This document shows positions 15,798 to 17,982 of a stretch of DNA of 64,000 nt, in pieces. Under the pieces are notes generated by a model. That model did not search any database. It had not been told where the DNA came from and saw only the letters and a list, made by a program, of their open reading frames with translations. The number at the start of each line of letters is the position of its first letter. Within the stretch, counting starts at the first letter, position 1. Source of the stretch: Methylocapsa acidiphila B2 (GTDB taxonomy: Bacteria; Pseudomonadota; Alphaproteobacteria; Rhizobiales; Beijerinckiaceae); contig NZ_KE386496.1 of assembly GCF_000427445.1 (NCBI RefSeq), forward strand, positions 2,557,504 through 2,621,503. The letters are read 5' to 3'. Made by a program: the position numbers and the translations under genes.

Positions 15798-16021
15798 ACG
15801 CCGATTTCCCTTCGCGCCGCGCGCAGCGTCCGTCATTGCTTTGACCGAAGCTTAGCAGGGCCGGCCCAGAGTTTCGACAAGCTATCGAATCCCGCCGGCC
15901 GCGCGAATGCGGCTTCCGCCCTTCTGTCATGCGACGTGAGATCGCTCGTTCATCCGTCTTAAGAGCACGCAAAGCTCGATGGCCATTCGCCAATCGAACG
16001 CTCCATTTGGGAGAAAGGCAC

Positions 16022-16651
16022 ATGACGACCAAGCCGTTGCTGCTCCTCGCACTCGCGATCGCCGCTCTTTTTGCTTCTCCCGCGCGGGCCTTCGAGACCG
16101 CGACCGTGGTGCGGGACCACTGCTCTATTCGGATCGGTCCCTATTTGCTCAATTACAGCGGCTTTCAGCCGGAGGTCCAATCGAAAGAAGCATTCTGCGC
16201 CGATCTCCCGGCTTCGGGCAGAACGCTGATCGTTCTCGACGTTGAGCAAAACTCCGGCGGAATGGGCTTGGCCTCGGACCATTACAATGAACTGCGAGAC
16301 ATGCAGATCGACTTTCGAATCGTGCGCAATGTCGGACAGGACGAAGAGGATCCGGAGGAGCAGACCGAAGTCTACCTTCCGCCAGAGAAATATCCCGCCG
16401 GCACGCTGACCTTGCAGCATGATTTCAAGAATGGCAGTTACATCGGCGTTGTCACGGCGCGGGACTACCACGGTCGAATCTTCGTCTCGCGTTTTCCCTT
16501 CCGGGTTGGGCCGTCGGCCAGCGCATTGCCTTACGCGGTCGGCAGCTTCGTCTTAGGCGCGGCGGCCGTCGGATTTTTGATCGCGCGGCGCCGGTCGCCG
16601 GCCTTGTCGCGAGCCGTGCAGCGTTTCCGCGCCACGACGACAATTAGCTGA
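16022..16651 (+). CDS. Secreted, C-terminally anchored protein of unknown function
   Basis: A 209-residue protein with a cleavable signal peptide (KPLLLLALAIAALFASPARA), a beta-rich periplasmic body and a C-terminal membrane helix (about residues 175-195) ending in a basic tail (RRRSPALSR). Conserved-looking features are two cysteines (DHCSIRIGPYLLNYSGF and EAFCADLP) that could form a disulfide, and an acidic stretch DEEDPEEQTEVYLPP. I associate similar one-anchor periplasmic proteins with methane and ammonia oxidisers, but only from memory and cannot confirm it. The ATG at 16022 follows GGGAGAAAGGC. It stands alone between pncB (divergent) and the aromatic leader. No function is assigned. 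Confidence 0.7.
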   Translation: MTTKPLLLLALAIAALFASPARAFETATVVRDHCSIRIGPYLLNYSGFQPEVQSKEAFCADLPASGRTLIVLDVEQNSGGMGLASDHYNELRDMQIDFRIVRNVGQDEEDPEEQTEVYLPPEKYPAGTLTLQHDFKNGSYIGVVTARDYHGRIFVSRFPFRVGPSASALPYAVGSFVLGAAAVGFLIARRRSPALSRAVQRFRATTTIS

Positions 16652-16752
16652 CCAGCGAACGCCACTCGCGGCCGGGATCGCTTGCCCGCCCGCGGCGGCA
16701 TCGGCGCAAAAACCATATGACAAGGGTTTTCGTCTGCGCTACGGTGACGGCC

Positions 16753-16830
16753 ATGTTGCTCGTCTCCAGCCGCGCCTATTTCTGGTTTTATTGGTTTTCC
16801 TCGCCAGCGGCTGAGGCTCGATGCGCATGA
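16753..16830 (+). CDS. Aromatic leader peptide of the DAHP synthase gene
   Basis: A 25-codon reading frame encodes MLLVSSRAYFWFYWFSSP and ends AAEARCA. It contains seven consecutive aromatic codons (Tyr-Phe-Trp-Phe-Tyr-Trp-Phe at 16777-16797), far beyond chance, directly upstream of the first enzyme of aromatic amino acid synthesis. In-frame GTG at 16744 and ATG at 16717 could extend it to 37 residues. The stop codon at 16828 lies 28 bases before the terminator stem. Such a peptide works as a sensor: low charged Phe, Tyr or Trp tRNA stalls the ribosome on these codons. Its existence as a translated peptide is inference from this arrangement. Confidence 0.85.
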   Translation: MLLVSSRAYFWFYWFSSPAAEARCA

Positions 16831-16886
16831 TCTGACGACATCGCAAAAGTCCTTCACCAGCCGCCCGGTTCGCCTGGCGGCTTTTT
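16802..16886 (+). promoter_or_regulatory. Transcription attenuator (antiterminator/terminator) of the DAHP synthase gene
   Basis: The terminator stem AGCCGCC/GGCGGCT (16859-16865 with 16876-16882) has an inner GG/CC pair, a TTCG tetraloop and a run of five T ending at 16886. Two upstream segments can pair with it in competition: GCGGCT at 16807-16812 with AGCCGC at 16859-16864, and CGCCAG at 16802-16807 with CTGGCG at 16874-16879. A ribosome stalled on the aromatic codons leaves these segments free to form the antiterminator; one reaching the stop codon masks them, so the terminator forms. All pairings are seen in the sequence; the regulation follows from the classical attenuation model. Confidence 0.85.
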
Positions 16887-16923
16887 CATGCCGCGGGCCC
16901 CGGCAAAATTCGGAGCCGAAGCC

Positions 16924-17982
16924 GTGTTGAGCACTGACGACCTTCGCATTTGCGAGATCAAGGAACTCGCGACCCCCGCCGAAATCATTCGCGAATGCCC
17001 TCGCACCGAGACCGCGACCAAGACCGTCATCAACGCGCGCGACGCTTTGCGCCGCATTCTCCGCGGCGAGGACGATCGCCTCGCCGTCGTGATCGGTCCC
17101 TGCTCCATCCACGATCCAGTCGCCGCGCGCGACTACGCCGCACGGCTCGCCGAGGCGCGCAAGCGGCTCGCGGGCGAGCTTGAGATCTTCATGCGGGTCT
17201 ATTTCGAGAAGCCGCGCACGACGGTCGGCTGGAAGGGACTGATCAACGATCCGCATCTCGACGGCAGCTTCGCGATCGACCAGGGCTTGCGCATCGCGCG
17301 CGGGCTACTCCTCGACGTCAATGATCTCGGCTTGCCGGCGGGCTGCGAGTTCCTCGACATGATCACGCCGCAATATATCGCCGATCTCGTGAGTTGGGGC
17401 GCGATCGGCGCCCGCACAACCGAGAGCCAGGTCCATCGCGAGCTCGCCTCCGGCCTCTCCTGCCCGATCGGCTTCAAGAACGGCACCGACGGCAATGTGC
17501 GGATCGCCGTCGACGCGGTGAAGGCGGCCTCCTGCCCGCATCATTTCCTCGCCGTGACCAAGACCGGCCAGAGCGCCATCGCCTCCACGGCCGGCAACGA
17601 GGACTGCCATATCATTCTGCGCGGCGGCAACGCGCCCAATTACGACGCCGCCAGCGTCGCCTCGGCCTGCGCCGAGGCGGTGAAGTCCGGGGTGACGCCG
17701 CTTCTGATGATCGACGCCAGCCATGCCAACAGCCGCAAGAAGCCGGAAAATCAGGGACAAGTGATCGAGGATGTCGCGGCGCAAATCGCCGCCGGCGAGC
17801 AAAGAATCATCGGGGTCATGATCGAAAGCCATTTGCGCGCCGGCCGCCAGGATCTCGTTCCTGGCCAGCCGCTGGTCTATGGCCAGAGCATCACCGACGG
17901 CTGCATCGACTGGGAAAGCTCCGTCGCGCTTTTGGAGCGTCTCGCCCAGGCTGTCGCCGCACGGCGCGCCTTGGGTCGATAG
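16924..17982 (+). CDS. aroG: 3-deoxy-7-phosphoheptulonate (DAHP) synthase, class I alpha
   Basis: Joins phosphoenolpyruvate and erythrose 4-phosphate, the first step of the shikimate pathway. Class I marks are VVIGPCSIHDPVAARDYA, MRVYFEKPRTTVGWKGL, GCEFLDMITPQYIADLVSWG, GARTTESQVHRELASG and LMIDASHANSRKK. The isozyme (Phe-, Tyr- or Trp-sensitive) cannot be told by eye; the symbol aroG is used in the general sense. The start is taken as GTG 16924, which gives VLSTDDLRICEIKEL and has GGAG eight bases before it. The in-frame ATG at 16888 abuts the attenuator T run and has no usable ribosome site. Expression is controlled by the upstream leader peptide. Confidence 0.95.
   Translation: MLSTDDLRICEIKELATPAEIIRECPRTETATKTVINARDALRRILRGEDDRLAVVIGPCSIHDPVAARDYAARLAEARKRLAGELEIFMRVYFEKPRTTVGWKGLINDPHLDGSFAIDQGLRIARGLLLDVNDLGLPAGCEFLDMITPQYIADLVSWGAIGARTTESQVHRELASGLSCPIGFKNGTDGNVRIAVDAVKAASCPHHFLAVTKTGQSAIASTAGNEDCHIILRGGNAPNYDAASVASACAEAVKSGVTPLLMIDASHANSRKKPENQGQVIEDVAAQIAAGEQRIIGVMIESHLRAGRQDLVPGQPLVYGQSITDGCIDWESSVALLERLAQAVAARRALGR

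Follow-up and report, generated by a model that had tools for sequence, protein, structure and literature searches.

Background

DAHP synthase is the first enzyme of aromatic amino acid synthesis and the point at which carbon is committed to all of these amino acids; in E. coli, its control relies on three allosteric isoenzymes and on repressors. In Methylocapsa acidiphila B2, a gene for this enzyme is preceded by a short open reading frame (ORF) rich in aromatic codons and by a terminator-like hairpin, which raises the question of whether it is controlled by ribosome-mediated attenuation, a textbook mechanism, and which amino acids such a leader would sense. The locus was analysed within a stretch of 64,000 nt, hereafter the window, to which all positions refer. 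The data presented below make it very probable that this region constitutes a ribosome-mediated transcription attenuator of the class I DAHP synthase gene, translation of the leader, ribosome stalling and termination in the cell being deduced from sequence comparison.

Organization of the locus

The elements of the proposed attenuator and of the gene that it precedes are, in order:

16717..16722, + strand: -35-like hexamer ATGACA (5/6 of TTGACA), with a 17-nt spacer to the -10
16740..16745, + strand: -10-like hexamer TACGGT, 7 nt before the leader ATG
16753..16830, + strand: putative leader peptide ORF of 25 codons plus stop, from ATG 16753 to TGA 16830, predicted product MLLVSSRAYFWFYWFSSPAAEARCA
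16762..16773, + strand: segment 1, which according to folding pairs with the tail of the leader ORF (protector hairpin 1:2)
16777..16797, + strand: proposed regulatory codons (codons 9-15), TAT TTC TGG TTT TAT TGG TTT, or YFWFYWF
16806..16816, + strand: segment 2, AGCGGCTGAGG, which competes with the terminator 3' arm for segment 3
16858..16868, + strand: segment 3, the terminator 5' arm and partner of segment 2
16873..16886, + strand: segment 4 (3' arm) and T run of the intrinsic terminator
16912..16915, + strand: Shine-Dalgarno-like GGAG of the DAHP synthase gene
16924..17982, + strand: class I DAHP synthase of AroG type, start GTG 16924

The gene product matches PF00793 (8.2e-94) and TIGR00034 (534 bits for a cut-off of 173), while its score with the AroG model NF006723 (561.9 bits) is slightly below the cut-off of 568. 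It is the sole PF00793 match of its genome, which also encodes a class II DAHP synthase (L002). Inspection by eye of ca. 490 bases upstream of the latter revealed no evident aromatic leader, and no trpE leader stood out by eye upstream of two chorismate-binding genes of the same genome. In the window, the class I gene has as neighbours a same-strand ORF (15929-16651) that matches no Pfam family and an opposite-strand gene for a TauE-type exporter.

The seven consecutive aromatic codons that the original prediction had placed in 16753-16830 are confirmed and form the only run of 5, 6 or 7 such codons when both strands of the 64-kb window are read; among 200 dinucleotide-shuffled versions of it there were five runs of 5 in total and none of 6 or 7. 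The UUCG-capped terminator expected after the leader frame is also present, as a hairpin GCCGCC-c-GG-UUCG-CC-u-GGCGGC at 16860-16881 that is followed by TTTTT at 16882-16886. Likewise, the two upstream segments that were thought able to pair alternatively could be located, with 16762-16773 facing the leader tail and GCGGCTG (16807-16813) facing CAGCCGC (16858-16864), the latter pairing using bases just 5' of the usual 5' arm. Segment 2 of the window is devoid of an exact GGCGG and carries the sole A-C mismatch at alignment column 69, its pairing being shifted. Folding of the leader region, which had been proposed as a check, was unremarkable for 16720-16900 (z of -0.69, with 49 of 200 shuffles as good); single-sequence folding alone would thus not reveal the element, and the evidence for an attenuator is comparative.

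The layout had further been taken to place the start of the DAHP synthase gene at GTG 16924. This start is indeed favoured, because of GGAG at 16912-16915 and of the gtg-[ct]tg-agc gene start found in many relatives, but the argument from layout does not stand: ATG 16888 also lies 3' of the terminator, so that the layout leaves the choice between the two codons undecided.

Occurrence of the leader and terminator in relatives

Two sets of loci were compared. The first (88 loci) comprised the best 80 named relatives listed and 8 loci of the family, one of which is the own gene; the second comprised loci of the class and phylum (at most 30 per search) and 40 more distant stretches hand-picked to spread over families. 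Anchoring on the gene start was achieved for 169 loci, namely the 88 of the first set and 81 of the 83 later ones, the two unanchored being weak matches; some loci are duplicates from one genome (L073 and L086). An aromatic-rich short ORF (at least 4 aromatic residues in 8) and a CCGCC...GGCGG-T terminator occur together in 127 of the 169 anchored loci and are both missing in 32, and one part occurs without the other in only 10 (the aromatic ORF alone in 7 distant loci, the terminator alone in 3). Within the first 88, the best short ORF has at least 5 aromatic residues in 8 in 71 loci, compared with the reverse strand, on which 5 is reached in one locus and never exceeded.

The leader rule recognized a leader in 79 of the 88 first-set loci and none in nine. 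One of these nine, L074 of Candidatus Burkholderia humilis, possesses the component parts of the leader as well as the terminator, and its aromatic frame overruns the usual stop, an alteration that perhaps reflects decay. Loci lacking the element are mostly distant (51-63% identity), to which are added eight betaproteobacterial metagenome assemblies from the first set (L028, L029, L047, L048, L051, L055, L056 and L071). The element was found in named Bradyrhizobium, Rhizobium, Devosia, Kaistia, Methylosinus, Bordetella, Achromobacter, Collimonas, Massilia, Dyella and Rhodanobacter, genera that represent the Alpha-, Beta- and Gammaproteobacteria. Aromatic codons and pairings, whose lack of conservation in close relatives had been named as an outcome that would refute the attenuator, are thus conserved. 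Side observations concern L098, whose match was reported with one in-frame TGA while none occurs in the stretch later aligned, and L114, the flank of which carries a tandem glycine riboswitch (417-610).

New loci were admitted to the leader set on condition that GGCGG[CT]TTTT was present as well; L149, L163 and L171 were set aside by hand, and L035 was dropped (its terminator reads GGCGGCC). The set then consisted of 125 of 126 leader loci, with 117 distinct sequences, in several of which the leader start was shifted by hand to an inner start codon. All 117 have both Phe and Tyr in the run, together with Trp in 83 and without it in 34. The longest unbroken aromatic stretch counts at least 7 codons in 10 of the 117, the window's included, and 4 or 5 in 68. 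Phe is mostly encoded by UUU in the leaders (272 of 339 codons) as opposed to 63 of 663 in 115 distinct DAHP synthase genes, related sequences being counted apart. This preference fits a model, presented in PMC1183508, in which the sensitivity of an attenuator depends on the synonymous codon used; alternatively, it may keep the run free of pairing.

Finally, 8 of the 99 family genomes, the own one among them, have a class I DAHP synthase, as do 16 of 385 in the class sample (own included, two weak) and 225 of 398 in the phylum sample, a patchy distribution that suggests gene transfer or loss. Given its absence from both sampled congeners (G040 and G076) and its presence in those 8 family genomes out of 99, the gene was probably acquired or lost as a unit with its attenuator.

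Putative promoter and probable start of the leader RNA

Many relatives have GTGACA at roughly the position of the -35-like hexamer, and in 91 of the 117 elements the distance from the end of the best -10 to the leader ATG is 6-9 nt (in shuffles, 11.6% are at 5-10 nt). Complementarity to the anti-Shine-Dalgarno is limited to 3 nt or less before the leader ATG in 109 of 117, whereas it reaches at least 4 nt before the DAHP synthase gene in 109 of 117. The -10 spacing and this weak complement suggest that the leader is probably read from a leaderless mRNA beginning at its AUG. In some Massilia and Duganella loci (L060, L062, L064 and L080) the -10 is located 22-26 nt upstream instead. The leader frame has a further ATG upstream, at 16717, which shares bases with the -35-like hexamer and would lengthen the leader to 37 codons; ATG 16753 is preferred because of the promoter spacing in relatives.

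Predicted competing RNA structures

The alignment was examined in 57 representatives below 86% similarity as well as in the 117 distinct sequences. Since the arms were located by [AG]CCGC[CT] and GGCGG[CT], part of the invariance of their core columns is a product of the search itself. This selection affects neither the agreement between A/G and T/C in the outer pair nor the occurrence of GGCGG within the leader ORF. No filter having been applied, GGCGG follows the run in 104 of the 117 leader ORFs, most commonly at a distance of 11 nt (70 leaders). This motif is a copy of the terminator 3' arm and can pair with the 5' arm to form an antiterminator. Because it is kept in another, uncommon frame in 7 leaders, the RNA rather than the peptide appears to be maintained. 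In many leaders, GGCGG is followed by a purine-rich, Shine-Dalgarno-like stretch similar to GGAGGNAGGGG (alignment columns 69-90, approximately 16806-16824 of the window), which could act by pairing with a CCC on the 5' side of segment 3 or by delaying the ribosome.

Among the representatives, 94.5% of the cells of the terminator helix are paired, and the outer pair is GC in 31, AU in 23, GU in 3 and AC in none (GC 81, AU 31, GU 4 and AC 1 among the 117). The antiterminator helix has 81.8% of its cells paired, versus 17-51% in controls slid by 1-3 columns. Covariation, suggested as a check of the attenuator, was borne out by the helix scores: that of the terminator was 0.199 versus 0.100 in shuffles, with 0 of 500 shuffles as high, and the antiterminator displayed both-sided changes in 15 cells, with 1 of 500 as high. 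In two Rhizobium-type rows (L053 and L081), for instance, G-C is replaced by A-U jointly in segments 2 and 3. It was not borne out by counting pairs, since the number of pairs with both-sided changes was unremarkable (equalled or exceeded in 99 of 500 shuffles of the terminator and in 116 of 500 of the antiterminator), as were further pair types in the antiterminator (76 of 500), and the tree-based test was underpowered. The outer terminator pair underwent 8 or more changes on a tree of 50 DAHP synthases, but well-supported branches offer only 3 independent pairs for comparison, too few for significance, in which the partner was concordant in 2.8 on average and never opposite.

When partners were exchanged between elements, the own partner surpassed the average of the exchanged ones in 91 of 117 for pairing 3:4, 75 for 2:3 and 85 for 1:2. 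When compared to 50 shuffles, the own duplex ranked among the best two in 114 of 117 for 3:4, 85 for 2:3 and only 57 for 1:2.

Pairing states were then predicted for the 57 representatives, a pairing being counted when at least 4 pairs were expected. In the free RNA, 3:4 is predicted in 52, 1:2 in 39 and 2:3 in 4. If the run is masked before segment 4 has been made, the prediction is 2:3 in 51. Once segment 4 exists, the equilibrium under the same masking favours 3:4 in 39 and 2:3 in 14, the window member being balanced (3.5 vs 3.9 expected pairs). Because the terminator is favoured at equilibrium once segment 4 exists, antitermination would have to be kinetic, relying on the order of synthesis. 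A ribosome at the stop codon gives 3:4 in 56 of 57, a result of little weight since this state excludes segment 2 along with all other sequence as far as 10 nt beyond the stop.

These predictions can be arranged into the following scheme. RNA polymerase would start at or beside the leader AUG (16753) and a ribosome would translate the leader. With ample charged tRNA-Phe, -Tyr and -Trp, the ribosome would reach the stop codon and leave, upon which 1:2 would pair, 3:4 would form the terminator and the transcript would end near 16886. If an aromatic aminoacyl-tRNA were scarce, the ribosome would stall in 16777-16797 and hold segment 1, so that 2:3 would pair before segment 4 is made and the polymerase would continue into the DAHP synthase gene.

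A covariance model of the element

A covariance model of the element (R1) gave one strong match in the own genome (3.0e-17), the next being at 0.05. In 398 proteobacterial genomes, 53 matches fell below 1e-6, of which 49 are directly upstream of a DAHP synthase gene and 4 are Phe leaders, two before pheA and two before pheS, all recognized as Phe_leader by Rfam. Most of the former (48 of the 53) lie 32-143 nt upstream, on the same strand, of a DAHP synthase match from the phylum-sample search, and the one in G494 precedes another DAHP synthase of that genome. Twelve of the 49 are rows of the training alignment and many others are close relatives; in the family coded f193, only G674 is a training row among eleven matches.

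The 14 R1 regions inspected individually correspond to DAHP synthase (3, including L226 and L227), pheA (3), pheS (3), trpE(G) (1) and ilvC (1), along with L220, L222 and L224, which are ambiguous or chance. The Phe-type leaders are L217, L218 and L219 before pheS, L219 being slightly above 1e-6, and L215, L216 and L223 before pheA. Five Phe leaders found by R1 are confirmed by Rfam (E from 2e-8 to 3e-6), and at gathering score Rfam did not recognize L223, which has a Phe-rich frame and precedes a pheA-type gene. The weak match at L221 (4.9e-6) covers a short frame MTISMNIGNWWWARFARP with Trp-Trp-Trp, evidently the trp leader of the trpE(G)-type gene that follows. Another weak match, L225 upstream of ilvC, contains a Leu/Ile/Val-rich frame LRSILVLVLITQPTGAGRASV and a terminator, with no usual start codon at the match edge, and is possibly a branched-chain leader.

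Searching 16400-17200 of the window with Rfam gave nothing even at E 10 except two matches on the other strand (E 7.6 and 9); for Phe_leader (RF01859) in particular, the window yielded no hit at the gathering threshold or even at E 10. No leader family was found at gathering score in 20 related DAHP synthase loci.

Alternative explanations and amino acids sensed

An aromatic leader peptide with an attenuator before the DAHP synthase gene, as proposed in the original prediction, is supported by the conserved run, terminator and competitor, by paired changes, by the co-occurrence of the parts and by the R1 matches. It could be objected that the hairpin is a mere terminator of the upstream gene (15929-16651), whose ORF has the same orientation and stops at 16651, and that the aromatic ORF has arisen by chance. 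This is extremely improbable and is refuted by the comparative data, both parts being present in 127 of 169 loci and runs of 6 or more being absent from all 200 shuffles; moreover, in named Alpha-, Beta- and Gammaproteobacteria the leader and the terminator remain associated with DAHP synthase, and the interval that separates the upstream ORF from the leader contains a promoter-like pair. An effect in trans of the released leader RNA or peptide, besides or instead of attenuation, would be analogous to rnTrpL/peTrpL of Sinorhizobium meliloti. The design is that of trpL, with a probably leaderless small mRNA ending at the terminator, and PMC7298713 provides an alphaproteobacterial precedent; yet peptides of different lineages have little in common beyond the aromatic run and a short tail, and the retention of GGCGG in other frames in 7 of 104 leaders favours an RNA function in cis, which makes a trans role improbable here.

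With attenuation as the preferred reading, the question of which amino acids are sensed is less settled. On balance, a graded OR response is slightly favoured, in which a shortage of any of Phe, Tyr or Trp would be sensed with a weight that is unequal by codon position. That one gene responds to all three is a plausible hypothesis, tempered by the 34 of 117 runs that have no Trp and by AroR of Corynebacterium glutamicum, which is reported to answer Phe and not Tyr. Somewhat less probable is a leader that senses mainly one aromatic amino acid, most likely Phe, the Tyr and Trp codons adding little. Codons for Phe outnumber the others and show the strongest codon bias (UUU in 272 of 339), R1 also finds Phe leaders, and the Phe-Tyr-Phe leader AroR is described in the review PMC11802643 as answering Phe and not Tyr. 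Against this, Tyr occurs in 117 of 117 runs and Trp in 83 of 117. Trp is an otherwise rare residue, which also counts against a Phe-only leader. Its presence in the run is labile, with at least 9 changes on the tree of 50 DAHP synthase genes, which fits tuning or drift. A broader and more tentative proposal, to which we give not quite even chances, is that of a portable, mostly leaderless module travelling with class I DAHP synthase across Proteobacteria as one OR gate, whose weights would be set by the slow UUU and by codon order and in which Trp would be gained or lost to match the enzyme set.

Relation to known systems

Candidate attenuators of DAHP synthase genes extend to Acholeplasma, which belongs to another phylum than Proteobacteria. 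The uORFC-13-1 motif before aroF of Acholeplasma is a candidate uORF attenuator (PMC8632094) with 24 examples and at least one Phe codon; it resembles the present element in its position before a DAHP synthase gene and has a consensus unlike that of the proteobacterial element. Closer in design is the leader AroR of C. glutamicum aroF (Phe-Tyr-Phe), for which ribosome-mediated attenuation is described (PMC4046766 and PMC11802643). Both are aromatic leader peptides before a DAHP synthase gene, the RNAs being compared by description only, but AroR is actinobacterial, is devoid of Trp and, according to the review PMC11802643, responds to Phe limitation and not to Tyr. The trpL leader of trpE(G) in Alphaproteobacteria shares with the present element an RNA that, in S. 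meliloti, starts at the leader AUG (PMC7298713 and PMC10117765), and R1 matches L221; it differs by having Trp codons only, by preceding another gene and by the trans functions known for the S. meliloti RNA and peptide. Other predictions include regulatory 5' regions of Shewanella aroF and aroH (PMC2659441) and, in two Vibrio species, putative attenuators before DAHP synthase-tyrA operons that PMC1173090 lists from Merino's site.

The Phe_leader family (RF01859) of pheA and pheST likewise combines a short Phe-rich leader, competing segments of GGAGG type and a terminator, whereas the leaders of DAHP synthase genes combine Phe with Tyr and, in most cases, Trp, and their core is CCGCC/GGCGG. Leaders of the ilvGMEDA type provide the case of one leader with codons for several end products, branched-chain instead of aromatic amino acids. 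The ilvGMEDA operon is named among attenuators in PMC1183508. No earlier report of the present element in Proteobacteria was found in searches of the open-licence PMC literature. It is best read as a variant of the ribosome-mediated attenuator, without Rfam match in the 21 loci scanned and new as far as that literature shows.

Significance

R1 provides a covariance model for this element, and the element supports the choice of the start codon for the DAHP synthase gene. The natural variation of the run, with or without Trp and in differing order, makes possible a direct test of how an attenuator weighs several amino acids. If attenuation holds, one leader reading the charging of tRNA-Phe, tRNA-Tyr and often tRNA-Trp would represent a simpler control of DAHP synthase in many Proteobacteria.
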